A stretch of DNA of 35,688 bases, from contig JAFZFH010000162.1 of NCBI GenBank assembly GCA_017555965.1, positions 1 through 35,688 on the forward strand, read 5' to 3'. Below the pieces are notes generated by a model, which was not told the DNA's origin, did no database searches, and worked only from the letters and a program-made list of their open reading frames with translations. Position 1 is the stretch's first letter. Every line of letters starts with the position of its first letter. The stretch comes from Bacteroidales bacterium. Its GTDB lineage: Bacteria > Bacteroidota > Bacteroidia > Bacteroidales > UBA932. The position numbers and the translations under genes were made by a program. Of this stretch, positions 16,450 through 29,789 are shown in pieces.

Positions 16450-18375
16450 TTAAATATTTACATCTTCCAATTCCTGTGCGCTTCTGAGGTTTCTGCTGAT
16501 GAAGATCTGTCTGTCGATGGTGTTTTCACCCATATAGAACTCCATGATGTCAGCGAGAGGCTCCTCGTCGCTCAGTCTTACCTTGTCCAGACGCATGTTC
16601 TTGCCGATGAATCCGGTGAACTCGTCCCATGAGATCTCTCCAAGACCTTTGAATCGTGTTATCTCTACCTTGGTCTTGAGTTCCCTGATTGCCTTTTCCT
16701 TCTCTTCCTGGCTGTAGCAGTAACGTACCTCGCTCTTGTTCTTTACTCTGAAGAGCGGTGTCTGAAGGATATACACATGTCCTCGTCTGATGAGGTCAGG
16801 GTGATACTTCATGAAGAATGTAAGTACCAGCATGCGGATGTGCATTCCGTCGTCATCGGCATCGGTTGCGACGATGATCTTGTTGTAGCGGAGGTCGTCG
16901 ATGTCCTCCTCGAGGCCAAGGGCGTTGATGAGAAGGTTAAGTTCCTCATTCTCAGCAATCTTCTTGCGGCTTTCCTTGTATGAGTTGATAGGCTTTCCTC
17001 GCAGTGAGAATACTGCCTGGGTCTCGGCGTTGCGGGCCTTTGTGATGGTTCCGCTTGCAGAGTCTCCCTCGGTGATGAAGATGCTGGTCTGCTCGCGAAG
17101 CTCCTCCTTGCCTGCAGGAAGCTTGTCCTTGAGGTGATATTTGCAGTCGCGCAGTTTCTTGTTATATACGCTTGTACGCTTATTGCGTTCCTTTGTCTTC
17201 TTCTGGATCGATGATATCTCCTGGCGCTCCTTTTCTGAAGATACGATCTTCGCCTGAAGGGCAGGAATGATCTCCTTATGCATGTGGAGATAATTGTCCA
17301 GATTTGTCTTTACAAAGTCGTTCACGAAACTTCTGATTGTCGGACCGACGTCGTATCCGTGTGTTCCGTCTTCGTTCTCTATGACCTGATTCCACATGTA
17401 TGTGGATCCGAGCTTGGTCTTTGCCTGGTTGGCGAAGATAGGTTCCTGGATCTGGATGCTGATGGCTCCGATGATGCCCTGACGGATATCCTCAGGTGCG
17501 AAGTCCTTTTTTGCATAAATCTTGAAGAACTCCTTGAGTGTCTTTGAGATAGCCTCTCTTACAGCTACGAGGTGGGTACCGCCGTCGCGTGTGTTCTGAC
17601 CGTTCACGAATGAGGTGATGTTCTCACCGTAGCTGTTGCCGTGGGTGATTACGATCTCTATGTCTTCTCCCGCGATGTGGATAGGTGCGTAGAAAGGGTC
17701 TTCCGACATCTTTTCGTTGATCAGGTCAAGAAGTCCGTTCTTTGAAATGTATGGCGTACCGTTGAGGTTGAGAGTCAGACCTTTCTTGAGGTAAGAATAG
17801 TTCTTGATCATTGACTCCACGAACTCTATGTTGTACGAGTAGTCAACGAAAAGGTTTTCATCCGGAGTGAACTTTACGTATGTTCCGTTCTTTTCCTTTG
17901 TTTCCTTCATGCCGTCGTTTACAAGCTTTCCAGCTGCAAACTCAGCATATGAGCACATGCCGTCACGGTAAGCCTCAACATAGAAATAAGACGAAAGAGC
18001 ATTCACCGCCTTCAGACCTACACCATTCAAGCCTACTGATTTCTTATAACCTTTCGAGTCGTATTTACCTCCGGTATTGAGGATGCTCACCGCCTTGACT
18101 ACGGAGTTGAGGGGAATCCCTCGTCCGAAGTCTCTTACTGTAACCTCCTTCTCTGTAACTCCTATCTGAATCTGCTTTCCGAAACCTGCAGAGAACTCGT
18201 CGATCGAGTTGTCCACAACTTCCTTGAGCAGCACGTATATACCGTCTGCAGGATCATCTCCCTTTCCAAGGGTTCCGATATACATACCTGGCCTGAGACG
18301 GATGTGCTCCACGCCTTCAAGCGTCCTGATGTTATCGTCGCCGTAACTAGTCTGATTTATATTATCTGTCGCCAT
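16450..18375 (-). CDS. parE: DNA topoisomerase IV subunit B (ParE type)
   Basis: This is a type II topoisomerase ATPase subunit. GHKL ATPase landmarks: LKEVVDNSIDEF (about 49-60), RDFGRGIP (about 97-104) and VGLNGVGLKAVNALS (about 133-147). The transducer lysine region follows near QTK. The TOPRIM domain has TEGDSASGT and ATDADDDGMH with the metal-binding acids. The EGDSASG form (not EGDSAGG) and the 641-aa length fit ParE of Bacteroidota rather than GyrB. Its parC partner is not next to it here; an acyltransferase gene follows after 4 bp instead. Start ATG at 18375 follows a TACCTTTG promoter box by 25 bp. GyrB cannot be fully excluded without a tree. Confidence 0.9.
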   Translation of the reverse strand: MATDNINQTSYGDDNIRTLEGVEHIRLRPGMYIGTLGKGDDPADGIYVLLKEVVDNSIDEFSAGFGKQIQIGVTEKEVTVRDFGRGIPLNSVVKAVSILNTGGKYDSKGYKKSVGLNGVGLKAVNALSSYFYVEAYRDGMCSYAEFAAGKLVNDGMKETKEKNGTYVKFTPDENLFVDYSYNIEFVESMIKNYSYLKKGLTLNLNGTPYISKNGLLDLINEKMSEDPFYAPIHIAGEDIEIVITHGNSYGENITSFVNGQNTRDGGTHLVAVREAISKTLKEFFKIYAKKDFAPEDIRQGIIGAISIQIQEPIFANQAKTKLGSTYMWNQVIENEDGTHGYDVGPTIRSFVNDFVKTNLDNYLHMHKEIIPALQAKIVSSEKERQEISSIQKKTKERNKRTSVYNKKLRDCKYHLKDKLPAGKEELREQTSIFITEGDSASGTITKARNAETQAVFSLRGKPINSYKESRKKIAENEELNLLINALGLEEDIDDLRYNKIIVATDADDDGMHIRMLVLTFFMKYHPDLIRRGHVYILQTPLFRVKNKSEVRYCYSQEEKEKAIRELKTKVEITRFKGLGEISWDEFTGFIGKNMRLDKVRLSDEEPLADIMEFYMGENTIDRQIFISRNLRSAQELEDVNI

Positions 18376-18400
18376 ATTTTTCTAAAAAGCCATAATCGCA

Positions 18401-18408
18401 CAAAGGTA
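18401..18408 (-). promoter_or_regulatory. -7 box for the parE unit
   Basis: On the minus strand TACCTTTG matches TAnnTTTG, 25 bp before the parE ATG. It lies 58 bp from the divergent promoter of the surface-lipoprotein operon. Confidence 0.65.
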
Positions 18409-18465
18409 CAAATTTTTGGTGAATATTGACAGCTTTTTTCTTGCAACAGCCTTCAACTGCCTCAA

Positions 18466-18496
18466 TTTGTTTTTTCTTTCAAAATACCTATCTTTG
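18466..18496 (+). promoter_or_regulatory. Promoter of the seven-gene surface operon
   Basis: TTTG at 18466-18469, then exactly 19 bp, then TATCTTTG at 18489-18496: an ideal Bacteroidota -33/-7 promoter. Transcription should begin near 18503, which excludes the frame-opening ATG at 18416 and supports the ATG at 18521. Confidence 0.85.
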
Positions 18497-18520
18497 CAAG
18501 ATTGTAAGATTTTTAACCAA

Positions 18521-20446
18521 ATGAGACAAACGAGGATTAATTTGATCCGTGCGCACTTTGTCTTTGTTATTGCATTGATATTTTCTGCCTGTCAGGCAGA
18601 TATACAGGAACTGCATTCGGGCCCTCAGGAAGTGGGCTTCTATGTGGGTGGAAACAATACGCGTACGGAGATGCTCCAGAACGGTCTTTCTGCCGTCTGG
18701 TCGGCAAATGATGAACTTGCTTTGTGGGCAAGGAATTCTGCCGGCACATTTACCCTATCTGAACAGGTTTTCAAGACATACGGCATTGACGGAAGGTCAG
18801 GATATTTCACTTCAACACTTTCCAGTTCAATGCCGGAGGATGATTATACGTATTTCTGCAGCTATCCGCTTCCTGAGTCGGTTTCAGGTACAAAAGCAAC
18901 CTTCACGCTGCCTGCTTTACAGGATGGCAAGGTGAGTGGCGGTGCGGATATCATGATTGCTGAACCTGTGAAGCACGGAGCCCTTACTGCTCTTCAGGAA
19001 GTGGAAGATCATTCAGGAATGTCAATGCAGATGCACAGGATGATGCATCAGTTCAGATTCTATCTTCCGGAGGATAATTCCATAATGAACGGAGAGAGCA
19101 TCACTAGGATCGAACTTGTGTTCCCCAGAAAAGTGGCAGGTGAAGTTGAGATGGATCTTTCCGATCCGGATCTGCTTCCGTCTCTTGACGAGTCAGGCGG
19201 CACGGACAAAGTGGTCCTTTCAATGGCAGAGCCGTTGACAATGTCAAGGGAATCTGAAGGCGAATATGATTTTGCTTGTGTTGCCCTTGCTCCTGTGACA
19301 TTCGCTGCGGGAGAATCATTATCCATCAGGGCCTTCACAAACGACAGGATAGCGAAGATAGACCCTGTAGATCTTTGTGCGAAGCAATTGAAGCCGGGCC
19401 ATTCTACGCCGGTAAGACTCGTAGTCAAGGATATCGTCGATTATCCTTATGTCATCAGGTTCACTCTTACTGGAAACAATGTCGGTGAACCTGTCAACCT
19501 GATCAGGTTCACAGCTCCTTCAACCTGCGTCTGGCCGACTTCGGGCACCAATAAATATGTGTATGATCCCGGCAGAGATATTGCTGTGGGTGAGACAGTC
19601 GTATTCAGATTCGCCGATTATGCAGATTACTCAAAGTTCAGCAATCAGAATATTTCCATCGTTCTTGAGACAGAGAATGCCATCAGCACCGTTACATCAA
19701 AAGTCGGTACGGTTCCGAATGGTGTGGAAACTCATACTTCGGATATTTCTGCTGCCATGCCATATCTGCTGTATCAGGATTTCGGATCAATTTCGACATT
19801 TAGTGACGGACATGACAACCCGACGGTCGGTACAGCCTCCGATACATATACAGGAATCACAGAACTTTCATCATGTGGCCTTCCGGGATGGTTTGGAGTC
19901 CGGATTGGAATCCAGGGAGGAACTTCTGCCCGAATCTGCTGTAGATATCAGCATGTACTTCTTGCCGGTGCTTACTATAAGGGCCGACTTTATACTCCGC
20001 AGCTCTCCATGATCAAGGAGGGAAAGGATGTAAAGATTTCTGTGTCATTCAGGCACGGCTCCAACAGGAATGAGCGTGATCCTCTGATAGGTTCGAGACC
20101 TGACAAGTCACCGATTCTTTATTTCGGTATCAGTACCAAGGATGTCATAACGAATCCGGATGACAATGAAGGAGATCTGATCGATGAGATTACAGGACTG
20201 TATGCCGGCAGTGGATATGCCAATCCGGTTCCTACATCTTTGTCACCTATGGTGATAAAGGGTGAATACCTGGATAAGGAAAACGGTTCATATACGAACC
20301 TTCCGAAATCCAAGACCGTGACGATAGATAATGTAGACAGATATATGCGCCTGGGATGGATTCTTACAACCGATAATTCGGCAAGCAATACGAATGCAAA
20401 CTACTGGTTCTATATCGACGAAATAAAGGTTCAACTGACAAAATAA
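18521..20446 (+). CDS. Operon gene A: fimbrillin-like surface lipoprotein
   Basis: From the ATG at 18521 the protein has 641 aa and a lipoprotein signal ending IFSAC (lipid Cys24). The frame extends to 18416, upstream of the promoter, so that start is rejected. Residues about 30-330 resemble Mfa1/fimbrillin-like domains (VWSANDELALWARN; then alternating strands with PEDDYTYFCSYPLP). The rest, about 340-641, is beta-rich, with a C-terminal jelly-roll-like part (LLYQDFGSISTFSDGHD onward) that could bind sugar or protein; I cannot name a family for it. T47-R48 (NNTRTE) lies 24 residues after the lipid Cys, near the spacing of pilin cleavage sites. First gene of the unit; the next starts 29 bp downstream. 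A pilus tip, base or adhesin role is inference. Confidence 0.75.
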   Translation: MRQTRINLIRAHFVFVIALIFSACQADIQELHSGPQEVGFYVGGNNTRTEMLQNGLSAVWSANDELALWARNSAGTFTLSEQVFKTYGIDGRSGYFTSTLSSSMPEDDYTYFCSYPLPESVSGTKATFTLPALQDGKVSGGADIMIAEPVKHGALTALQEVEDHSGMSMQMHRMMHQFRFYLPEDNSIMNGESITRIELVFPRKVAGEVEMDLSDPDLLPSLDESGGTDKVVLSMAEPLTMSRESEGEYDFACVALAPVTFAAGESLSIRAFTNDRIAKIDPVDLCAKQLKPGHSTPVRLVVKDIVDYPYVIRFTLTGNNVGEPVNLIRFTAPSTCVWPTSGTNKYVYDPGRDIAVGETVVFRFADYADYSKFSNQNISIVLETENAISTVTSKVGTVPNGVETHTSDISAAMPYLLYQDFGSISTFSDGHDNPTVGTASDTYTGITELSSCGLPGWFGVRIGIQGGTSARICCRYQHVLLAGAYYKGRLYTPQLSMIKEGKDVKISVSFRHGSNRNERDPLIGSRPDKSPILYFGISTKDVITNPDDNEGDLIDEITGLYAGSGYANPVPTSLSPMVIKGEYLDKENGSYTNLPKSKTVTIDNVDRYMRLGWILTTDNSASNTNANYWFYIDEIKVQLTK

Positions 20447-20475
20447 TAAGATATTAATATAAGATTCAAAACCCA

Positions 20476-21207
20476 ATGAAACACTTGAAAACAATCATGA
20501 GTGTTCTGACTGTCCTGGTGGCATTATCATGCACCAAGAGTCAGACTGACGGCAATGGTCAGGTGTCTTTCCGGATTTCAAGCAGACCGGATGTGGTGGA
20601 GCAGACCAGAAGCAGTGTCTCAGATTACACTGCATTGCCATCGGCCGGAGACTTTACAATCTCCATTATTGATGAGTCTTCCGCACCTGTGTGGAGAGGT
20701 AAGATGACAGATTGGAATCAGGAAACACTTCTTCCGGTCGGAAATTACACTGTGACAGCAGCTTATGGCGCACTGGAGGATGAAGGTTTCGATAAGCCAT
20801 TCTTTACGGGATCCAACGCATTTGCCATCAACGGAGGTCAGACCACTGAGGTTCCGGTGACTGTAAGTCTCAGCAATACCATAGTGAAGGTAGCATGCAC
20901 AGACAATTTCAAGAACTATTACAAGGATTACACGTTCAAGATCGTGCGTGGAGGTTCTGACGTTGTGACATTCGTCAAGGGTGAGACCAAGGCTGCTTTT
21001 GTCGACGGTTATAGGTTCACTCTTACCGGTACTCTCAAGAGCGAGACAGGCACAAAGACATTTGAGAAGGAATACAGCTTCCTTGATGAGGCGACTGCCT
21101 ATACTTTTGAATTTGATGTTACAAATGTCGGCGGAGCAAGCATCTCAGTGACATTCAATAACAATGTTGAGGTCATCAGTCTGGATGATCTTGAACTTAA
21201 CGATTAA
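20476..21207 (+). CDS. Operon gene B: DUF4493-like surface lipoprotein, 243 aa
   Basis: A lipoprotein signal ends ALSC (Cys19). The mature part is one all-beta region: GDFTISIIDESS, LPVGNYTVTAAYG, FAINGGQTTEVPVTVSLSN. This order (short strand pair, L-P-x-G-x-Y turn, then a G-Q-x-T-x-V strand) recurs in genes C and D and fits DUF4493-type proteins of Bacteroidales. T44-R45 (EQTRSS) is 26 residues after the lipid Cys, comparable to the maturation site of FimA-type pilins. The protein is a single-domain form of what gene D carries at its N-terminus, so it is a candidate repeating subunit. No Shine-Dalgarno sequence precedes the ATG, which is 29 bp after gene A. Confidence 0.75.
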   Translation: MKHLKTIMSVLTVLVALSCTKSQTDGNGQVSFRISSRPDVVEQTRSSVSDYTALPSAGDFTISIIDESSAPVWRGKMTDWNQETLLPVGNYTVTAAYGALEDEGFDKPFFTGSNAFAINGGQTTEVPVTVSLSNTIVKVACTDNFKNYYKDYTFKIVRGGSDVVTFVKGETKAAFVDGYRFTLTGTLKSETGTKTFEKEYSFLDEATAYTFEFDVTNVGGASISVTFNNNVEVISLDDLELND

Positions 21208-21208
21208 C

Positions 21209-21214
21209 AGGAGG
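21209..21214 (+). promoter_or_regulatory. Strong Shine-Dalgarno sequence of gene C
   Basis: AGGAGG lies exactly 8 nt before the ATG at 21223. Most Bacteroidota genes, including the others here, have none, so this stands out. It confirms the gene C start. Confidence 0.85.
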
Positions 21215-21222
21215 AATACAGT

Positions 21223-22461
21223 ATGAAGAAAATTATCATTCTTATAGCTGCTGCAGCAGCTCTGATGCTTTCCGCATCATGTCAGAAGTCTCCTGTAAGC
21301 ATCAAGGAAGACGGCTATCTCTCATTCGGCGGTTTTATTCTTGAGGTGGATGAGACAGTAATTACAAAGGCAGAGGCTGCAGGTGACAACTACTCGATCA
21401 GCATTTATGATGCAGATGAAGATCTTGTGCTCACCAGGTCATATGCTGAAGTTGTGAACAATAACGGCATGCTTTCGCTTCCTGCCGGACATTATAAGCT
21501 TGTTGCTGCGTCATCGGCCGGCGAAGTTCCGTATGCTGCATTTGAAAACCCGATCTATGGAGTTACTCATGAATTTGATATCGCAGCCGGAGCGGTTACT
21601 GAAATCGGTGAGCTTGTATGTACTCTTGTACAGTGTAAGGTGACCGTATCGTACAGCGACGAGTTCCTTGCATCTGTGACCGGAACAGGTAAGACAAGTG
21701 TTGAGGTCAAGGCGGGATACCCTCTTGATTTCCAGCTTGATGCTGACGGTACATATGACAGGAGCGCAGGTTATTTTGCTGTGGATGGAAATACGATGAC
21801 AGTCGTGTTCCAGGGTAACATTGACGGCAAGAATGCCAAGATGACCAAGACCTTTACAGGTATTGCAGCAAGGCAGTGGCGTCAGATCAGGTTCGTACAG
21901 AAGAAGAACGAGCAGGGTCAGGCTACATTCGATATTGAAATCCAGGATCTTATCAGCGACTCGACTCTCAACAATGTCGTCGATGGTGAAGAGCCTGTGA
22001 TAGGCGAGGATCCGGATGCCCCTAAGGGGGACGGCGGTATCACCCTCCTTCCTGACTATGAGGCAGGCTGCGATGCAAGCATCACAGACCTGACAAACAT
22101 GGTCATCCTTCCTACATCACAGAAGACGATGTCTATCAAGCTCAGAGCTACAATCCCTGGTGGTATCAAGAAGTTCAATGTACAGATCACCACTACCAAC
22201 AATGCGTTTGCAGCAGCTGTAGCAGCTGCATCAGCAACCGACCTTGACCTTATCAGCCCGCTTCCTGAAAATGACGTGATCTTTAAGGTGGTTCCGTTCC
22301 CTCATGGTTCGGAGCTCGTAGGAAAGACTGATGTCGCATTTGACCTCAGTGCTGCCCAGGGACCTATTACGGCATATAAGGGAAGTCATACATTCATCAT
22401 GACGATTGTCGATCAGGAGGGTTGCAGAAAGCAGATCCCTGTGACAATGGTTGTAGAGTAA
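21223..22461 (+). CDS. Operon gene C: DUF4493-like surface lipoprotein, 412 aa
   Basis: The lipoprotein signal ends LSASC (Cys20). Residues about 30-240 repeat the gene B fold pattern (NYSISIYDADED, LPAGHYKLVAASS, FDIAAGAVTEIGELVCTL). A linker of acidic and Pro-rich sequence (about 250-275, GEEPVIGEDPDAPKGDGG) joins a second beta-rich domain (about 276-412; MSIKLRATIPGGIKKFNVQI, ending GCRKQIPVTMVVE) that I do not recognise, perhaps another Ig-like module. T48-K49 (VITKAE) is 29 residues after the lipid Cys. AGGAGG at 8-nt spacing supports the start. The stop TAA at 22459-22461 overlaps the first base of the Shine-Dalgarno sequence of gene D, so translation of C and D is probably linked. Confidence 0.75.
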   Translation: MKKIIILIAAAAALMLSASCQKSPVSIKEDGYLSFGGFILEVDETVITKAEAAGDNYSISIYDADEDLVLTRSYAEVVNNNGMLSLPAGHYKLVAASSAGEVPYAAFENPIYGVTHEFDIAAGAVTEIGELVCTLVQCKVTVSYSDEFLASVTGTGKTSVEVKAGYPLDFQLDADGTYDRSAGYFAVDGNTMTVVFQGNIDGKNAKMTKTFTGIAARQWRQIRFVQKKNEQGQATFDIEIQDLISDSTLNNVVDGEEPVIGEDPDAPKGDGGITLLPDYEAGCDASITDLTNMVILPTSQKTMSIKLRATIPGGIKKFNVQITTTNNAFAAAVAAASATDLDLISPLPENDVIFKVVPFPHGSELVGKTDVAFDLSAAQGPITAYKGSHTFIMTIVDQEGCRKQIPVTMVVE

Positions 22462-22466
22462 GGAGG
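22461..22466 (+). promoter_or_regulatory. Strong Shine-Dalgarno sequence of gene D
   Basis: AGGAGG overlaps the gene C stop codon. It is 8 nt from the ATG at 22475 but only 2 nt from the ATG at 22469, so 22475 is the start. Confidence 0.85.
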
Positions 22467-22474
22467 ACATGAGC

Positions 22475-24331
22475 ATGAAAAGGATTCTTACAATGATGGT
22501 TGCTGCTGTTGTATTTTCAGCAGTTTCATGCACAAAGTCCGAAATGAAGGATAATGTCTCCGGAATGGGAATGCTCAGCGTGGATATGAGTCTTCCTGAA
22601 CTTGCCACACGTGCCATCAGTGATGAACATCTCATAAATACAGCCGTTGTAAATATCTACAAGGCGGACTTCAGCGGCCTTGTACGCTCTTATAGATATT
22701 CGGATATCCCTTCTGAAATATATCTTGCAGCTGATTCTTATCGAGTTGATGTCATTGCCGGTGAAACTGTTTCGGAATCTCCGGCTGCTGCATCATGGGA
22801 GAACAGGAGCTACAAAGGTTCTGATGAGTTCGATATCGTTGCAGGCCAGGTGACTTCCGTAACCGTAGCCGCTGATGTGAACAATGCCGTGACCGCAATC
22901 TCATTTGATCAGACTGTTGCAGAAAACTTCGTGGCAGGCTATACTTTTACCATCGGCCTTGATTCTGATGAGTCTGCAAAGCTCATATACGATGAGTCTA
23001 AGTCAGGTGCAGAGGGCTATTTCATCGTAGCAGGTCTTGATGAGCCTTCATTCAACTGGACTTTCACAGGTACCTTGGCAAAGGATGGCTCTGAATTCAC
23101 AAAGTCCGGAACCATTTCCAATGTCCTTCCTGGCAAGCTTTACAGGATGAATATCAGGTACACAATCAAGGACGGTGATCTTGAGTTCACTCTTTCTGTA
23201 GACCGTGTTACAGAGATCATTGACGATGTCATAATCTTTGAGCCTGTCTCTACAGGTCTTACCCCTTCTCCGGCATACGAGATCTGGGCGGGTCATGCTA
23301 CCCTTCATGCGGATGTCGATGCTGGTGAATATGCGGGTGCGACAGTCAGGTTCGGCTATACTTCAGACGGGCAGACATGGGCTTATGCAGATGCTGTAAG
23401 TGCAGGTGACGGTGCCTGGACGGCTGATATCAAAGGTCTTGCTCCATCTACAGAGTATACATATACACTCCTTATCAATGATGAGCAGGTTGGAGATGCC
23501 CTGAATTTCACTACTGATGCTGCACCGAACCTTCCAAATGCAAGTTTCGAGTATGCGAGTCTTGTCACAGGAGCTTCTTATTACAAGTTCTATGATCCTG
23601 CCTGCGGCGTAGAGGAAGGTGCATCGATGTTCTGGGGATCAGGTAACGGTGAGGGACCGGACGGTGTCAACGGATCTGCTAACATGGGTATCGAGATTAC
23701 ATATGTCGATAAGGATGTGAAGGTTCATGGAAAACAGTCAGTGCGTGCTCAGACAAGCGAAATGGCCGGCTTCCTTGCTGCCGGAAACCTTTTTACCGGT
23801 CAGTTCGACGGTCTTGTCGGTACGGAGGGTGGAAAAGTTAACTTCGGCCGTCCATGGCAAAGCCGTCCTACAGCCCTGAAGGTATGGTGCAGATATGAAA
23901 CGGACAAGATTGATGTCATCAATTCAATGCCTCCGGGAATCACTCTTACAAAGAATGATTACGACCGTGCTCAGATCAAGGTAGCCATCGGAACATGGAA
24001 CTACAAGACTTACGGTGGTACGAAGAACAGCCCTGTTCATGTCAATACCACTGACGAGAGTACGTTTGTAGATTACTACACTGATTCAAGCACCATCGCC
24101 AACGGTGATATCATCATCTACAATGACGGTTATCAGATTAATAAAGGTAATAAGGTCAGTGCAACCACAACAGAATGGGTGGAATATACTATTCCGCTTG
24201 ACTATCACGATCTTAAGTCTTACCCTACACATATCATCGTATCTTGTGCATCATCACAGTATGGAGATTATTTTACCGGAAACAACGGATCAAAGCTCTG
24301 GCTTGATGCATTTGAACTGGTTTACGAATAA
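22475..24331 (+). CDS. Operon gene D: DUF4493-like + Fn3-like + PCMD lipoprotein
   Basis: From the ATG at 22475 (618 aa) the lipoprotein signal ends SAVSC (Cys19). Domains: DUF4493-like region (about 28-245), an Fn3-like domain (about 262-348; WAGHATLHADV, then LAPSTEYTYTLLIN) and a PCMD domain (putative carbohydrate metabolism domain, about 350-618; PNASFEYA, YKFYDP, MFWGSGNGEG, LAAGNLFTGQF, NFGRPWQSRP, DYFTGNNGSKLWLD). T45-R46 (ATRAI) is 27 residues after the lipid Cys. The PCMD domain likely has a sugar- or glycan-binding sandwich fold; its biochemistry is not established. It is the multi-domain member of the B/C/D set, so it might cap or tip a structure made by B and C, an inference. The PCMD and Fn3-like part is repeated in gene G. 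Confidence 0.8.
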   Translation: MKRILTMMVAAVVFSAVSCTKSEMKDNVSGMGMLSVDMSLPELATRAISDEHLINTAVVNIYKADFSGLVRSYRYSDIPSEIYLAADSYRVDVIAGETVSESPAAASWENRSYKGSDEFDIVAGQVTSVTVAADVNNAVTAISFDQTVAENFVAGYTFTIGLDSDESAKLIYDESKSGAEGYFIVAGLDEPSFNWTFTGTLAKDGSEFTKSGTISNVLPGKLYRMNIRYTIKDGDLEFTLSVDRVTEIIDDVIIFEPVSTGLTPSPAYEIWAGHATLHADVDAGEYAGATVRFGYTSDGQTWAYADAVSAGDGAWTADIKGLAPSTEYTYTLLINDEQVGDALNFTTDAAPNLPNASFEYASLVTGASYYKFYDPACGVEEGASMFWGSGNGEGPDGVNGSANMGIEITYVDKDVKVHGKQSVRAQTSEMAGFLAAGNLFTGQFDGLVGTEGGKVNFGRPWQSRPTALKVWCRYETDKIDVINSMPPGITLTKNDYDRAQIKVAIGTWNYKTYGGTKNSPVHVNTTDESTFVDYYTDSSTIANGDIIIYNDGYQINKGNKVSATTTEWVEYTIPLDYHDLKSYPTHIIVSCASSQYGDYFTGNNGSKLWLDAFELVYE

Positions 24332-24340
24332 AGATTTCTG

Positions 24341-25078
24341 ATGCGAAAATCAATAATCATATTATTATTTCTGATTCTCGGTGCGTATGGCGCCGAGGCT
24401 CAGCATTATGACAGGGGATACGAGGCTTCTCCGTCGTTTCCTTTCCTCGAGAAAGGTACATGGATGACCGGTGGGTCTGTCAGATATTCCCAGCATATCA
24501 ATGAGGATTACTCATTTGCAGTAATCAATGACATAAACTCGAATGGCTATAATGTTTCCATCGACCCGAAGATGCTCTATATGTTCAGAGACAACATGGG
24601 TGTAGGATTCAGAGTGTCTTACGATAGGAGTATGCTTGACATGTTGTCTGCAGACCTTTCGATCTCTGACCTTTCGATGAGTATAAGTGACTGCTATCAG
24701 ATTCAGCATAAATTCAGTGCTTACGCAGTCTGCAGGTCATACATACCTCTCGGTAATTCAAAGCGTATCGCGATGTTTGCTGATGTTCTCCTGGGTGGTT
24801 CATTCAAGCAGGGTAAGGCTTTCAATGCAGGAGATGAGTATGTCTTGGGGACATTTTCACGTTCATATGCGCTCGAACTTGCTGTCGATCCGGGCATTGT
24901 CCTCTTTCTGACAGACAGGCTTGCAGCTGAAGTGAATGTCGGAATCTTCGGCGTAAGCTACAGGTGGACCGATCAGATCCGCAATCAGGTTTCCAACGGA
25001 CACACCAATTCGACATCTGCCGGTTTTATGGTTAATCTGCTCTCACTGGGTGTGGGCCTTTCATACTATTTCCTATGA
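24341..25078 (+). CDS. Operon gene E: outer-membrane beta-barrel protein, 245 aa
   Basis: A signal peptide (MRKSIIILLFLILGAYGAEA, cleavage before QHYD) without lipobox is followed by alternating beta-strand sequence with aromatic girdles (GTWMTGGSVRYSQHI, NMGVGFRVSYDRSM, KFSAYAVCRSYIPL, IVLFLTDRLAAEVNVGIFG) and a C-terminus LGVGLSYYFL, ending in the aromatic/hydrophobic residue expected of outer-membrane barrels. Eight or ten strands would fit the length. It is a paralogue of gene F: the same KGxW opening, DNxxVGxRxxY and aligned strand blocks. Its stop overlaps the ATG of F in ATGATG. Role in export or anchoring of the lipoproteins is inference. Confidence 0.8.
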   Translation: MRKSIIILLFLILGAYGAEAQHYDRGYEASPSFPFLEKGTWMTGGSVRYSQHINEDYSFAVINDINSNGYNVSIDPKMLYMFRDNMGVGFRVSYDRSMLDMLSADLSISDLSMSISDCYQIQHKFSAYAVCRSYIPLGNSKRIAMFADVLLGGSFKQGKAFNAGDEYVLGTFSRSYALELAVDPGIVLFLTDRLAAEVNVGIFGVSYRWTDQIRNQVSNGHTNSTSAGFMVNLLSLGVGLSYYFL

Positions 25079-25860
25079 TGAGATCAAGAAATATATTGAC
25101 TGCAGTTCTTCTTGTGATGATGACTGCCGTGGCCTCTTATGCTCAGACATCGGAGGCGAAGACAATCTCCCTGGGAGATGAAATCATTCCGAATGATACT
25201 ACAAAGGTGCGCCGTTTCAAGAACCGCCTCATCATTCCGAAAGGGGAGTGGCAGTGCGGCCTGGCTGTGATGTATGCGGACTTTTCGAGTGATGATTCTG
25301 ACTATATGCTCATTCTTCAAGGACTGAATGCCAAAGCTTCTCTGTTCAAGGCGGCACCGGAAGCGGCCTATTCATTTGCAGACAATCATGCTGTAGGTGT
25401 GAGGTTCCAGTATGTCAATGTGAACGGTATGGTGGATACTGCCACAGCAGACCTTCTGGGTAATCTCGACATGTCTGTCGAGAACCTCAATGCAATGTCG
25501 AGATCGCTCAGTGCCAGTGTTTTTCAGAGGACATATGTCGGCCTGGACAATCAGGGAAGAGTAGGTATATTCTGGGACTACATACTTGCAATGAGCAGGA
25601 CTCAGTCACAGTTCTATGCCGGAGAATCATCGTCTGCATACAGTATCAAGAAAAAGTTAAACCTGGCGTTTGCTCCAGGATTTGTTTATTTCCCGATGAA
25701 CAATGTTTCAGTACAGGCAAGCATATCTCTTGCAGAACTTTCGTACAGCAATATGACTGCATATGATGACGGCAGTGTTGTAGGCGTACGTAATGCATGG
25801 AAGGCTCAGGCCAACCTTAACCTCTTGGGCATAAGTATGGGAATTACCGTGCATTTTTAG
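25075..25860 (+). CDS. Operon gene F: outer-membrane beta-barrel protein, 261 aa
   Basis: The signal peptide (MMRSRNILTAVLLVMMTAVA, cleavage after YAQ) precedes barrel-like strands: KGEWQCGLAVMYADFS, NHAVGVRFQYVNV, SASVFQRTYVGL, LNLAFAPGFVYFPM, and a C-terminal ISMGITVHF with a terminal Phe, the usual sorting signal for outer-membrane insertion. The order of these blocks follows gene E, so the two arose by duplication. The ATG at 25075 overlaps the gene E stop (ATGA); 25078 would serve equally. The next gene starts 1 bp after its TAG, so E, F and G are tightly coupled. Confidence 0.8.
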   Translation: MMRSRNILTAVLLVMMTAVASYAQTSEAKTISLGDEIIPNDTTKVRRFKNRLIIPKGEWQCGLAVMYADFSSDDSDYMLILQGLNAKASLFKAAPEAAYSFADNHAVGVRFQYVNVNGMVDTATADLLGNLDMSVENLNAMSRSLSASVFQRTYVGLDNQGRVGIFWDYILAMSRTQSQFYAGESSSAYSIKKKLNLAFAPGFVYFPMNNVSVQASISLAELSYSNMTAYDDGSVVGVRNAWKAQANLNLLGISMGITVHF

Positions 25861-25861
25861 G

Positions 25862-27520
25862 ATGAAGAAACTTATATACATAATATTTGCCATAACGGCT
25901 TTTGCTGGATGTATCACCAATGACATCCCATATCCTGTAGTCGAGCCGAAAGTGATTTCCGCAGACATTGAGGGTGCTGAAAAGGTCGAGGTCGACAATA
26001 CGCTCAGACTCATTACCGCTCACATAGCGGAGTATGTCGACATGAGGAATGTCAATGTGAAATCCATAGATGTGGATACGGAGATTGCAGAACTTTCTTC
26101 AGGAGTGATCGGCAGCCATGACCTCTCACAGCCGTGCAGATTCAGTATCCGTACGTATGACGATTATAAGTGGACGCTTGCAGCTGAGAAGCATGTCGAG
26201 AGATATTTCACTGTAGAAGGTCAGATCGGAAGCAGTGTCATTGATGAACATAACTGCAGGGCAATTGCAGTTGTCGGAAAGAAGACTGATATATCTGCAG
26301 TCAATGTGACTTCTCTCAAGCTTGGTCCGGAAGGTCTCAGTGACTATTCTGTGAGTATGTCCGAGATGAAGGATTTCACTCATGGACTTTCTGTAGATGT
26401 GACAGCATTCGGAGAGACTGAATCATGGATGCTTTTTGTCGAGGTTACAGAAGTGAACGTAGATATAAAGAAGATCAATCCATGGGCATGTGAGGCCTAC
26501 ATCACTGCTGCTGGTGTAGCCGGAAATGATAATGGATTCAACTACAGAGAGGCCGGTGCCTCAGATTGGCTCATCGTGGATGAAGCGGACATCGTTTCAG
26601 AAGGAGGTACATTCGTCGCTCATCTCAGAGGCCTGAATCCGGAGACAGACTACGAGATCGTAGCATATTCCGGATCGGAGATGACATCTGTATTTGAGTT
26701 TACTACAGAATCAGCAGTTCCTGTTCCTAACGGAAGTTTCGAATATGCAAGCAAGGTGAAAGGCAAGGACTATTACAAGTTCTATGATCCATCGTGTGGT
26801 GTTAAGGATGGTGAGTATATGTTCTGGGGCTCCGGTAATGGTGAAGGCACAGAAGGTGTAAGCGGATCAGCAAATATGGGTATCGTAATCACTTATATTG
26901 ATACGGAAGATAAGGTTGACGGCAGACAGTCTGTCAGAGCTCAGACCAGTCAGATGGCCGGAATTCTTGCGGCAGGTAACCTCTTTACCGGTCAGTTTGC
27001 AGGACTTGTCGGAACAAGTGGAGGTATGGTGAATTTCGGACGCCCATGGTCAAGCCGTCCGGTGGCTATGAAGCTCTATTGCAAATACGTGACAGGCAAG
27101 ATGGATATCATCAAAGGCGCTCCTGCAGGAATGACACTTACCAAAGAAGACTACGACCGTGCTGAAATCAAGTTTGCTTTAGGAGATTGGGACTATAGGA
27201 AGTATGGCGGTACCAAAGAGAATCCTGTGCATGTGAATACAACAGATTCACGTACATTTGTCGATTTCAACACAGATGCGTCCACTATCGCCAACGGAGG
27301 ACTCATAATCCATCATGACGGATACATCCTTAATGGAGGGTCGAAAGTCTCTGCCGCAACTGATCAGTGGGTGGAATATACGATACCGTTGGAATATCGG
27401 GATATTGAAAGACGCCCGACCCATATAATCATTTCATGTGCAGCATCTCAGTTCGGTGACTACTTTACCGGATACAGCAGTTCAAAACTTTGGATTGACG
27501 CAGTAGAACTGATATATTAA
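25862..27520 (+). CDS. Operon gene G: PCMD-domain surface lipoprotein, 552 aa
   Basis: The lipoprotein signal ends AFAGC (Cys16). The N-terminal region (about 20-200) is beta-rich and does not share the DUF4493 pattern or the T-R/K site of genes A-D; it resembles Ig-like or plug-like modules but I cannot name it. An Fn3-like domain follows (about 213-285; LNPETDYEIVAYSGSEM), then PCMD (about 288-552; PNGSFEYA, YKFYDP, MFWGSGNGEG, LAAGNLFTGQF, NFGRPWSSRP, DYFTGYSSSKLWID). This C-terminal half is strikingly like that of gene D. Last gene of the unit; its TAA is one base from the stop of the converging permease gene and no terminator is visible. Confidence 0.8.
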   Translation: MKKLIYIIFAITAFAGCITNDIPYPVVEPKVISADIEGAEKVEVDNTLRLITAHIAEYVDMRNVNVKSIDVDTEIAELSSGVIGSHDLSQPCRFSIRTYDDYKWTLAAEKHVERYFTVEGQIGSSVIDEHNCRAIAVVGKKTDISAVNVTSLKLGPEGLSDYSVSMSEMKDFTHGLSVDVTAFGETESWMLFVEVTEVNVDIKKINPWACEAYITAAGVAGNDNGFNYREAGASDWLIVDEADIVSEGGTFVAHLRGLNPETDYEIVAYSGSEMTSVFEFTTESAVPVPNGSFEYASKVKGKDYYKFYDPSCGVKDGEYMFWGSGNGEGTEGVSGSANMGIVITYIDTEDKVDGRQSVRAQTSQMAGILAAGNLFTGQFAGLVGTSGGMVNFGRPWSSRPVAMKLYCKYVTGKMDIIKGAPAGMTLTKEDYDRAEIKFALGDWDYRKYGGTKENPVHVNTTDSRTFVDFNTDASTIANGGLIIHHDGYILNGGSKVSAATDQWVEYTIPLEYRDIERRPTHIIISCAASQFGDYFTGYSSSKLWIDAVELIY

Positions 27521-27521
27521 T

Positions 27522-28640
27522 CTACATGAAGAGCATGGCAGCAAATCCTGCTGCCAATGCAACAAAGCAGTTGATGAGCTTCGCCCAGGCGAAGCTCTTT
27601 CTGCTTTCTGCCAGAAGCGGAATCGATGAGTGTCCGTCCTGTGAAATGGAGCTTGCCATAAGGACAGGGAACGGTACGACTCCGGCGGCAAAAAGAGTCA
27701 CGAAGACCATGTGCGGCCCCGATTCAGGTATGATTCCTATGAGGGTGGCAAGAATGATCATAAGAGCAGTGTTGTCACTGATCCAATGCTCTATGTCTAC
27801 ATGCTGAAGAGCGAATCCGAGTATCAGAAGGACTCCGAAAGTCCATGCAAATGTAGTAGGGAGATGTTTCCTTACGATATGCTTCCAAAGGTGTTCTTCA
27901 ACAAAGTTGTCGGAAGCAAAAAGGAGTACGAACAGCACGATTACGCTCAGGCCTGCAAAAAGTACGTTCATCCAGTCTTCACTCAGAAGATCGATTCCAT
28001 GATGGTGCTCGTGCATGTGGACATGCTCATGTGCCTGAATGTGTGCATGCTCATGAGTGTGTGCGGCGTGGTCGTGAGCGAGATGTCCGCTTGCCAGAGC
28101 AGCAATGAACAAGGCAAGTCCTACGAACATCAGGATACGTTTCCATCCGAAGTGGCGTTTTCTGCTGTCGCTGTCTGACTCATGATAACCGTCAGTGCAG
28201 CTGGTTTCAGCTCCACATTCAGAGTGGTCATGCTTGTCACAGTTTCTTGAGTGAATCTTGTCGTGGAAGAAATCCACAGTCACACCTGCAATGATCGCAA
28301 GGACGAAAAGTACCGCAAAAAGAATGAGGGCCTGTTCAGGAATCATCGCCAGCATCACGAATGCCTCGTCACCGGATGACGCAATCATCATCGCTACAAG
28401 AGCACCGAAGCTGAACATTCTATGGGTATACAGGGACACGGTTGCGAAGCCTCCCATACATCCCGGGATTGAACCAAGTAAAGACGCAATGACTACCTGA
28501 CCGAATTTGGTCTTCTTAAGTCCTTTGAACACCAAGCCCTTCGACTCGATGTTCAATGACTCGATCATCATCATCATCACCACCACCAGTCCTGTAATAA
28601 GAACTGAATTCCTTAGCGCCTCAATTATTATCTCGATCAT
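27522..28640 (-). CDS. ArsP_2-type metal permease with His-rich loop
   Basis: This 372-aa integral membrane protein fits the family called putative manganese transporter or ArsP_2 (about ten membrane segments, two repeated halves). The first half has LGSIPGCMGGFATVSLYTHR and the second LIGIIPESGPHMVFVTLF, matched Gly-x-x-Pro half-repeats. A cytoplasmic or periplasmic loop at about 190-216 is extremely His-rich (HDHAAHTHEHAHIQAHEHVH plus a further HHH), with a second Cys/His cluster at about 130-150 (CDKHDHSEC), both suited to binding Zn, Ni, Mn or Cd. Substrate is unknown. The start ATG overlaps the stop of the DUF1573 gene (TAATG), so the two are translationally coupled and convergent with the surface operon. 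Confidence 0.8.
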   Translation of the reverse strand: MIEIIIEALRNSVLITGLVVVMMMMIESLNIESKGLVFKGLKKTKFGQVVIASLLGSIPGCMGGFATVSLYTHRMFSFGALVAMMIASSGDEAFVMLAMIPEQALILFAVLFVLAIIAGVTVDFFHDKIHSRNCDKHDHSECGAETSCTDGYHESDSDSRKRHFGWKRILMFVGLALFIAALASGHLAHDHAAHTHEHAHIQAHEHVHMHEHHHGIDLLSEDWMNVLFAGLSVIVLFVLLFASDNFVEEHLWKHIVRKHLPTTFAWTFGVLLILGFALQHVDIEHWISDNTALMIILATLIGIIPESGPHMVFVTLFAAGVVPFPVLMASSISQDGHSSIPLLAESRKSFAWAKLINCFVALAAGFAAMLFM

Positions 28641-29731
28641 TATTCAATATAACCGGCTATGAATAGATTGACTATAGGGCGGAGAGGGGAGTTGGTTGTC
28701 AATGTGATGATGGTCAGTGACTCACCCTTGCCCACATCTGCAGTATCCAGCTCGATCTTGAAAGTTATTGACTCTCCAGGAGCAGCTTCCGGAATCGCTT
28801 CAGCTGTAATCTTCGCATCAGCATCCACCTTGAACACTTTGAACGGAGCCTTGCCGTCGTTCTTGAAAGTATACTCGGCGACCACCTTCTGCCCCTGTTT
28901 TACCTTACCGAACGAATAGGTGCTTTCCTTGAATGCAGGTCTAGGGCCGTTTCTCTTCTCATCAGCAGTCACATTGCTGAAATCCTCCCTGGTAAATGCC
29001 CAGAATCCGATTTTCTTGTCGCCCTCACTGCTGGTATATGTCTTGCCGTTAACGACAGGAATGGCCCAGTAGTAGTTCTTACCCCAAAGAGAACGGTCTG
29101 CTGTTATTGTATAGGTAAGCTCAGCAGTGCTTCTTGCAGGAATCGGATTAGGTGATACAGATAAATTCAGATTCTTCGACACATCATTGAATGATACGGT
29201 CATAGGTGCATTCGACAGATTGGCGATCATGATTGCCTCGCTCTTCTGACTGTTCTGGTCCATGTTGCCGCACTTATTGATGTTTTCCTTCAATCCGAGG
29301 GTTCCGTATGAAACAGGGTACAGTTCCTCAAGAGGCTTGATCTTGTCGAGAGAAACGCCACGAAGCTTCAGGATCACCGGCTTCTTCATCTCCGATATGT
29401 ACATGGTCAGACTCTTGTCGAAAGGATATGGTCCTTCGTCATTTGAATATGTCACAGACACTGTACCTGTCTTTCCGGGACGGATAGGCTCCTTAGTCCA
29501 GTCAACGTTTGTACAGCCGCATGTGGTAGTGACGTTGTAGATCACTACCGGCTTATTTCCTGTATTGGTCAGTGTGAATGTACACGACACAGGACCACTG
29601 TCCCAAAGGATGTCGCCGAAATTGTGAACGAATTTATCTATTTCCAGTCCGTCTGTTATTTTTTCCTGCGCTGACGCTCCAAAACAAGAAAGCATCAGGG
29701 CTGCTGCAAGTGCAGTGAATAATCTCTTCAT
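28640..29731 (-). CDS. DUF1573-domain exported protein
   Basis: The longest frame begins at 29770, but MKRLFTALAAALMLSCFGA from the ATG at 29731 is a clean signal peptide, so that start (363 aa) is preferred; the ATGs at 29737 and 29734 are equally close. After the signal, residues about 22-120 form a DUF1573 (ASH/Ig-like) module with the hallmark HNFGDI, LTNTGNKPVVI and TTTCGCTNVDW. A second, similar module ends the protein (about 265-363; STYSFGKVKQGQKVVAEYTF, KNDGKAPFKVF). It is probably periplasmic or surface-exposed. LSCFGASAQ allows either a lipobox-like Cys or SPI cleavage at SAQ. It is coupled to the metal permease by TAATG, so the two may work together, but no functional link is known to me. 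Confidence 0.82.
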   Translation of the reverse strand: MKRLFTALAAALMLSCFGASAQEKITDGLEIDKFVHNFGDILWDSGPVSCTFTLTNTGNKPVVIYNVTTTCGCTNVDWTKEPIRPGKTGTVSVTYSNDEGPYPFDKSLTMYISEMKKPVILKLRGVSLDKIKPLEELYPVSYGTLGLKENINKCGNMDQNSQKSEAIMIANLSNAPMTVSFNDVSKNLNLSVSPNPIPARSTAELTYTITADRSLWGKNYYWAIPVVNGKTYTSSEGDKKIGFWAFTREDFSNVTADEKRNGPRPAFKESTYSFGKVKQGQKVVAEYTFKNDGKAPFKVFKVDADAKITAEAIPEAAPGESITFKIELDTADVGKGESLTIITLTTNSPLRPIVNLFIAGYIE

Positions 29732-29789
29732 CATCATGTCGATTAATGTCAAACAACACAAAGATAACATAAATCACGCTATCCCTGTC

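Follow-up and report, generated by a model that had tools for sequence, protein, structure and literature searches.

Seven genes, designated A to G, occupy positions 18521-27520 on the forward strand of contig JAFZFH010000162.1 (assembly GCA_017555965.1), from a Bacteroidales bacterium of the UBA932 lineage. They form one operon that probably builds an undescribed surface apparatus of gut Bacteroidales, most likely a sugar-binding adhesin. The window, i.e. the whole stretch of DNA analysed, comprises 35,688 nt, and the part studied here is 18466-27520. The operon is composed of two modules, A-D and E-F-G, which differ in their genealogy, with the break lying between D and E. A two-module glycan-binding apparatus, presumably situated at the cell surface, is likely; the more specific interpretation, an adhesin in which A-D are pilin-like and E-F-G provide the seat, is evenly balanced between being right and wrong. 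On its gene content the operon qualifies neither as a canonical type V pilus locus nor as a SusCD transporter locus.

Genealogy and conservation of the operon

Relatives were collected through a scan with an alignment of G, from which the best 80 of 495 relative-encoding stretches were retained; 77 of these are Bacteroidales loci (L070-L146). Gene orders, trees, identities, lipoboxes, promoters and T[R/K] motifs were counted over this set plus the present locus. A second set, L035-L069, overlaps with it in part, and counts pooled over both contain repeats. The 77 loci are mostly from metagenome-assembled genomes of the gut, many from herbivores, with hosts including Alistipes, Rikenellaceae, Candidatus Cryptobacteroides (L090, L115) and the cultured Alistipes muris DSM 112343 (L127).

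Pairwise identities were compared over 55 complete operons, the bodies of D and G being taken without the PCMD domain that each carries. The correlations are 0.85-0.93 among B, C and D and 0.79-0.92 among E, F and G, as against 0.45-0.62 between the two blocks, with A intermediate (0.50-0.67 with the other parts). Trees of the two blocks share 36 of 52 bipartitions and reject each other in the approximately unbiased test (differences in log likelihood of 563 and 816; 2000 replicates, with a replicate-number warning). In a held-out test with 10000 replicates, C (+162), the D body (+151), the D PCMD domain (+191) and A (+116) fit better on the B-C-D tree, while E (-177), F (-181), the G body (-339) and the G PCMD domain (-380) fit better on the E-F-G tree; for B the difference is slight (+12, towards the B-C-D tree). 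These two genealogies lead to the prediction that E-F-G and A-D each form a physical complex.

The sequence-only reading of this DNA had listed a lack of joint conservation of the seven genes among the results that would refute it, and on this point it was upheld. The strict order A-B-C-D-barrel-barrel-G on one strand is found in 54 of the 77 loci, which argues that the arrangement is not due to chance; an end gene reaches a contig end in four of these (L085, L109, L111, L122), and contig ends cut 12 of the other 23. The remaining 11 loci deviate, through a single recognised barrel (L125, L133, L135), a slot filled by an unrecognised gene (L133, L140, L141, L144), a split barrel (L084) or the lack of any recognised barrel (L142); open reading frames were called with a simple script, which missed some lipoboxes, starts or genes. 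In L138, L139 and L146 both barrel genes are inverted and lie divergently upstream of A, with the lipoprotein genes and G staying together. In L075 (10851-12403 onward) G is succeeded by three more lipoprotein genes of the DUF4493 type, implying that the ladder of lipoproteins can be extended downstream.

A core unit is evident beyond these close relatives. E is present in 34 of 101 close genomes (its own included), and order-wide the barrel is matched in 85 of 393 genomes, 38 of them at an E-value of at most 1e-20 and from 17 families. Twenty loci were fetched from the 37 strongly matching genomes (E-value <= 1e-20, own genome excluded): a gene for an immunoglobulin-like (Ig)-PCMD protein lies directly downstream of the barrel in all 20, two barrels are present in 12 and one in eight, and DUF4493 genes lie upstream in 17. 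The PCMD gene follows in three of four weaker loci still within 1e-20 and in none of eight above 1e-16, so that these last matches were rejected as members of the family. The barrel and PCMD gene occur together in 16 families of Bacteroidales (L039 included), in some cases with no DUF4493 gene in the DNA examined (e.g. L048, L062, L195, L205), and the PCMD proteins of the minimal loci L056, L062 and L063 are of the size of BT2081 (354-369 aa). Among 30 order-wide PCMD loci, nine have a barrel, all of this operon type, and 21 have none such in the 2.4-3.8 kb examined. The operon thus exists in reduced forms across the order. Judged by the pairing in the fetched loci, its core consists of a small barrel and the PCMD protein encoded directly after it, and the lipoprotein ladder is a larger form of this.

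The fimbrillin-like A is found outside the taxonomic family of the present genome in one fetched locus only (L204); elsewhere the first gene usually encodes a long DUF4493 protein, a lipoprotein of 700-900 aa in L046, L047, L051, L191, L192 and others. Several of these first-gene reading frames in other genomes have a weak PCMD match.

Domains of the two modules

The gaps between successive genes from A to G are 29, 15, 13, 9, -4 and 1 bases. Lipoboxes, identified by pattern, are present among the 55 operons in 50 A, 52 B, 55 C, 54 D and 53 G proteins, as is typical of the lipoprotein subunits of type V pili (fim, mfa). The open reading frames and the export signals, again by pattern, bear out the earlier claim of a seven-gene operon whose products are all exported.

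Gene A (18521-20446) encodes a lipoprotein of 641 aa with a fimbrillin-like N-terminal part, a middle domain and a C-terminal domain (about 412-641). The protein of this locus has no Pfam match itself. Among 57 members of its family, 13 hit PF13149 Mfa_like_1, named 'Fimbrillin-like' (best 8.5e-13), and hence the fimbrillin-like character claimed for A, a feature of type V pilus subunits, holds at the level of the family. The C-terminal domain looks by eye like a jelly roll, without any convincing family or PDB match, and homology to PCMD was rejected (profile probability 0.3%). Profile searches of the PDB with the A, B, C and barrel alignments gave nothing convincing, the best being A to EXLX1 (E-value 0.019). 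An apparent homology of A to DUF4493 was likewise discarded, since a probability of 85% with the signal peptide fell to 0.2-1% once this was trimmed.

The next three genes encode lipoproteins with a DUF4493 domain: B (20476-21207; 243 aa, single-domain; PF14900 3.3e-36, 125.7 bits), C (21223-22461; 412 aa, with a C-terminal domain of ~150 aa; 4.9e-30, 105.5 bits) and D (22475-24331; 618 aa, or 620 aa from an alternative start at 22469; 3.6e-34, 119 bits). All three lie above the family cut-off of 27 bits, in accordance with the three DUF4493 lipoproteins proposed from the sequence. DUF4493 is matched by 56 of 56 relatives of B, and the architecture of D, in which DUF4493 is followed by an Fn3-like and a PCMD domain (PF13201 2.8e-30, 106.2 bits; cut-off 28 bits), is the same in its relatives.

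Profile comparisons suggest that DUF4493 is remotely related to Mfa2, the anchor of type V pili. Against 18 Mfa2 proteins, with signal peptides removed, the DUF4493 domain of C reaches a probability of 89.1% over 138 columns (score 48.7; the E-value of 2.2e-6 is for one comparison, and 88 were made), while 40 column-shuffled Mfa2 controls give C scores of at most 16.9 and probabilities of at most 0.4%. The same Mfa2 set gives 60% for pooled DUF4493, 24.5% for B, 10.9% for the fimbrillin part of A and at most 6.1% for unrelated profiles. A set of five Mfa2 proteins without signal peptides gives 45.6% for C and 0.3% for B; the first comparisons, at 80.9% for C with its signal peptide and 2.3% for B, were later repeated without it. 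With the Pfam profile for Mfa2, PF08842, four of 50 C proteins match at an E-value of at most 0.1. In the Mfa2 homologue BT1062, two transthyretin-like domains lie in tandem, and this fold is likely common to fimbrial components (PMC2954217).

The first module is also marked by a short motif. T[R/K][ASTV] occurs 15 to 45 residues past the lipid cysteine in 33 of 44 A, 83 of 116 B/C-type and 37 of 51 D proteins, and is rare in G (6/67) and in other lipoproteins of the same loci (3/46); the count kept proteins of at least 200 aa with a lipobox by pattern (A 44/67, B/C 116/141, D 51/65, G 67/86). In Porphyromonas gingivalis, cleavage falls at Arg49 of Mfa1, Arg43 of Mfa3 and Arg54 of Mfa4, whereas Mfa2 is described as uncut and lacking a cleavage site (PMC5789003), and normal polymerisation of Mfa1 requires this processing (PMC5954841). 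By these likenesses A-D look like processed pilin-type subunits, with cleavage and assembly as presumed steps; a pilin-like assembly of A-D is plausible.

Genes E (24341-25078; 245 aa, conserved family, without a lipobox) and F (25075-25860; 261 aa) encode predicted small outer-membrane beta-barrels, and overlap at an ATGA stop/start; F keeps its place in the gene order of the relatives. The two are paralogues, as had been proposed: E finds F at 4.3e-18 with 28% identity. Neither has a Pfam match in this locus; the putative assignment is based on matches to PF13505 OMP_b-brl at an E-value of at most 0.1 in 12 of 55 relatives (47 E-type and eight F-type), and on a crude amphipathicity profile that has peaks from which the number of strands is not derivable. 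The family of E ends in L or F in 49 of 55 proteins.

Gene G (25862-27520) encodes a lipoprotein of 552 aa with two Ig domains, an Fn3-like domain and a PCMD domain (PF13201 2.3e-30, 106.5 bits), and is thus the second PCMD lipoprotein that had been expected. Positions 6-106 of its profile, the lipobox region among them, match chain T of 8aa2 and 8a9y (2.8e-10), an Ig-like N-terminus of the kind found in surface glycan-binding proteins. Chain T is named as a DUF4960 domain-containing protein and, judging from its length (461) and the numbering in the corresponding paper, is taken to be Bt1761. The structure 8A9Y is the levan utilisome, whose glycan-binding protein has its Ig domains on the lip of SusC (PMC7618045); by analogy, G may sit on E and F. 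A further common feature of G-type proteins is C-x(1-4)-N-D near the lipid cysteine (101/123, pooled sets with repeats).

The PCMD domains align with 4het, 4jrl, 3s30 and 3hbz, the last being BT2081. The PCMD domain of that protein is a jelly roll with a deep pocket, a proposed catalytic pair (Asp259/Asp338) and calcium ligands including Glu122 and Asp351 (PMC2954218); the pair is a proposal of that paper, not a criterion for the family. Over 64 D and 86 G domains (L070-L146 and this locus), pocket residues are near-invariant: Asn200 in 64 and 85, Asp338 in 62 and 84, and Asp351 in 64 and 84, respectively. Glu122 is mostly kept (55/64 and 73/86). The position of the proposed nucleophile, Asp259, is an Asp in none of the 64 or 86, being mostly Gln, and Glu435 in the G of this locus. 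This makes binding of a glycan more likely than the proposed hydrolysis, and supports the glycan-binding role envisaged for PCMD in the sequence-only reading. The searchable literature was limited to open-licence papers, whose available text nowhere names DUF4493/PF14900 or the PCMD domain/PF13201; there the fold is known as the BT2081 family (PMC2954218).

The PCMD copies of D and G appear to be connected across the module boundary. In a midpoint-rooted tree, on which rooting the clades depend, D and G copies form joint clades of their own in 11 genomes around this locus (support 0.87), in five Alistipes/Rikenellaceae (0.97) and in L086 (1.0), together 17 of 55 genomes. In 47 of 55 genomes the two copies resemble one another more than they do the partner copies of other genomes; for this locus the identity is 0.69 within as against 0.43 across genomes. 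At fourfold sites, D and G are only 0.37 identical in this locus (median 0.38 over 55 genomes; highest 0.56 among the 22 genomes listed), and recent gene conversion was hence rejected here. As synonymous sites are saturated, the similarity is of old date and has been preserved. Most simply, D and G would share a ligand, which changes in step in some lineages and links the two modules; a gene conversion long ago, devoid of functional meaning, is a possible alternative explanation of the grouping.

Promoter, flanking genes and genomic company

An exact match to the Bacteroidales-type promoter, TTTG-N19-TATCTTTG, is found at 18466-18496 on the forward strand, the consensus for the order presumably being TTTG / TAnnTTTG. 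The -7 element TAnnTTTG precedes A by at most 200 bp in 50 of 66 loci, as against a mean of 8.06 and a maximum of 15 in 100 letter shuffles, and both boxes are present in 14 of 66 (shuffle mean 0.32). At internal starts the element is near background (DUF4493 genes 5/207, barrel genes 7/160, G genes 12/89). The single promoter proposed to lead the operon is therefore upheld by both the exact match and its recurrence. Generic sigma-70 promoters were not in excess (23 found, 21.6 expected by chance) and were rejected, as was an invertible promoter, there being no inverted repeats of at least 12 bases within 18000-18800.

Both flanking genes are on the opposite strand: a divergent gyrase-B/topoisomerase gene upstream (16450-18375) and a convergent ArsP_2 permease gene downstream (27522-28640), which is adjoined by a gene whose product has two DUF1573/HYDIN-like Ig repeats (28640-29770). 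A phage origin was rejected, as none of the seven proteins has a match in PHROGs.

Elsewhere in the same genome, a separate, strong Mfa2 gene (G000:C101, 8488-9381; 1.4e-63) and 19 Mfa_like_1 matches are found; the Mfa2 gene points to a canonical type V pilus locus elsewhere in this organism. Another contig (L068, G000:C60, 4469-10170) has a DUF4493+DUF6359 lipoprotein gene adjoining a SusC/SusD pair, so that DUF4493 also occurs in a locus of glycan-uptake type. Mfa2 genes are present in 28 of 37 barrel-positive genomes compared with 28 of 198 in an order-wide draw, which includes some of the 37 and is confounded by lineage. As nine of the 37 show none, the system does not require a canonical pilus anchor gene.

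Competing explanations and known systems

In the evenly balanced interpretation, A-D would be exported as lipoproteins, A as a fimbrillin-like subunit and B-D as Mfa2-related DUF4493 proteins. At least some would be cut at T-[R/K], 15-45 residues past the lipid cysteine, and would assemble, with strand complementation as the probable means, to give a short fibre or fixed stalk that carries the PCMD domain of D (and the C-terminal domain of A) outward. The second module would be the seat, with the N-terminal Ig domains of G docking on E and F, by analogy with the levan-binding protein on SusC, and G holding its PCMD domain at the membrane; both PCMD domains would bind one and the same glycan. 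A stricter version, in which a type-V-pilin-like fibre has a dedicated barrel base, the modules recombine as units and matched lectins stand at fibre (D) and base (G), is put forward tentatively and is on the doubtful side. With such a fibre, type V pili would gain their first barrel-seated relative, to our knowledge and short of an exhaustive search.

Several results weigh against this interpretation. In the held-out test every gene fits its own tree better than either block tree, A by far. The PCMD copies do not group clade-wise as D with G in 38 of 55 genomes, the largest pure G clade having 33 members; the median D-G identity is 0.48 within and 0.45 across genomes, and G is closer to other G, at 0.53. 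The fimbrillin-like A has no similarity to the DUF4493 profile (1%), B alone matches Mfa2 weakly, and C misses the PF08842 cut-off (15.7 of 21.2 bits; 0.011). There is no protease gene in the operon, and Mfa2 is above its cut-off in only six of 25 genomes of the genus.

The pilus-like system with its own barrels proposed in the sequence-only reading survives in part. The apparent relationship of DUF4493 to Mfa2 and the T[R/K] motif of A-D are in its favour, but the barrels follow the genealogy of G and the barrel-PCMD pair exists without DUF4493 genes, so that a plain pilus with barrels of its own is disfavoured.

The strongest competitor, still unlikely, is a non-polymeric complex for glycan capture, in which five surface glycan-binding lipoproteins would be accompanied by barrels acting as anchors or small porins, and no fibre would form. 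The N-terminus of G matches the glycan-binding chain of the levan utilisome, a DUF4493 lipoprotein stands beside SusC/SusD in the same genome, and the structural paper on PCMD ties the family to carbohydrate use, with paralogues in SusC loci (PMC2954218). Yet no SusC, SusD or recognisable enzyme is found among the seven proteins, A is fimbrillin-like, and the pilin-type motif is enriched in A-D only.

A surface coat like that of BT1926/BT1927 in B. thetaiotaomicron, with a lattice-forming surface lipoprotein held by a small barrel, is improbable. The same pairing of a barrel with a presumed surface lipoprotein is predicted here, and BT1926 is described as a predicted eight-stranded barrel that putatively anchors the S-layer lipoprotein BT1927 or serves in its secretion (PMC12578637), but G is a 552-aa protein with a lectin-like domain rather than a 100-kDa lattice protein, and the promoter is without inverted repeats.

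About as improbable, if not slightly more so, is that E and F are usher-like ports for the assembly or export of pilin-like subunits instead of anchors. The order and promoter are shared, the two barrels are related, and the available account of the P. gingivalis fimbriae describes no usher or chaperone genes (PMC5789003). Nonetheless, the genealogy of E and F follows G and not A-D, barrels accompany G in the loci listed above that have no DUF4493 gene in the DNA examined, and a mature size estimated at ~225 residues is small for a protein port.

Least credible is an ordinary type V pilus operon with acquired neighbours, which would account for the fimbrillin-like A, the Mfa2-like DUF4493 and the frequency of Mfa2 genes in barrel-positive genomes, but conflicts with the lack of a PF08842 anchor above the cut-off among the seven proteins, the barrel-PCMD pair in 16 families, the separate Mfa2 gene in the genome and a seven-gene order too conserved for recent neighbours.

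The two-module interpretation links an uncharacterised domain family, DUF4493, to the type V pilus anchor, and provides both a sharp module boundary (D/E) and a ligand prediction, namely that D and G bind the same glycan. If the fibre exists, the seating of type V-like fibres in the outer membrane becomes addressable; a cultured host of the operon exists in A. muris DSM 112343.

SusC is a 22-strand barrel, and no Pfam plug, receptor or SusD match is found in the seven proteins, whose barrels are of 245 and 261 aa. This sets the operon apart from the levan utilisome (8A9Y, 8AA2), where Bt1761 sits on a TonB-dependent SusC instead of on barrels of ~225 residues without a plug match. G and Bt1761 both have lipidated N-terminal Ig-like domains followed by a C-terminal domain for glycan binding, predicted in the case of G; this is a PCMD domain in G and a ThuA-like levan-binding domain in Bt1761. 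With BT2081 and the other PCMD structures (3hbz, 4het, 4jrl, 3s30), the present proteins share the Ig-like N-terminus, the jelly-roll C-terminus and the conserved deep pocket and calcium site, and differ in the replacement of Asp259 and in having their own barrel upstream. BT1926/BT1927 are alike by description as a small barrel beside a surface lipoprotein, a putative anchor pair, and unlike in their lattice-forming 100-kDa protein and invertible promoter (PMC12578637). Type V pili (fim, mfa) resemble the operon in their lipoprotein subunits, in the fimbrillin family of A, in the probable remote homology of DUF4493 to Mfa2 and in a basic motif past the lipid cysteine, which recalls the sites at which Mfa1, Mfa3 and Mfa4 are cut (PMC5789003). 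By contrast, Mfa2 is uncut and most DUF4493 proteins here carry the basic motif, and in place of a PF08842 anchor above the cut-off this operon has two predicted barrels and two PCMD lipoproteins.

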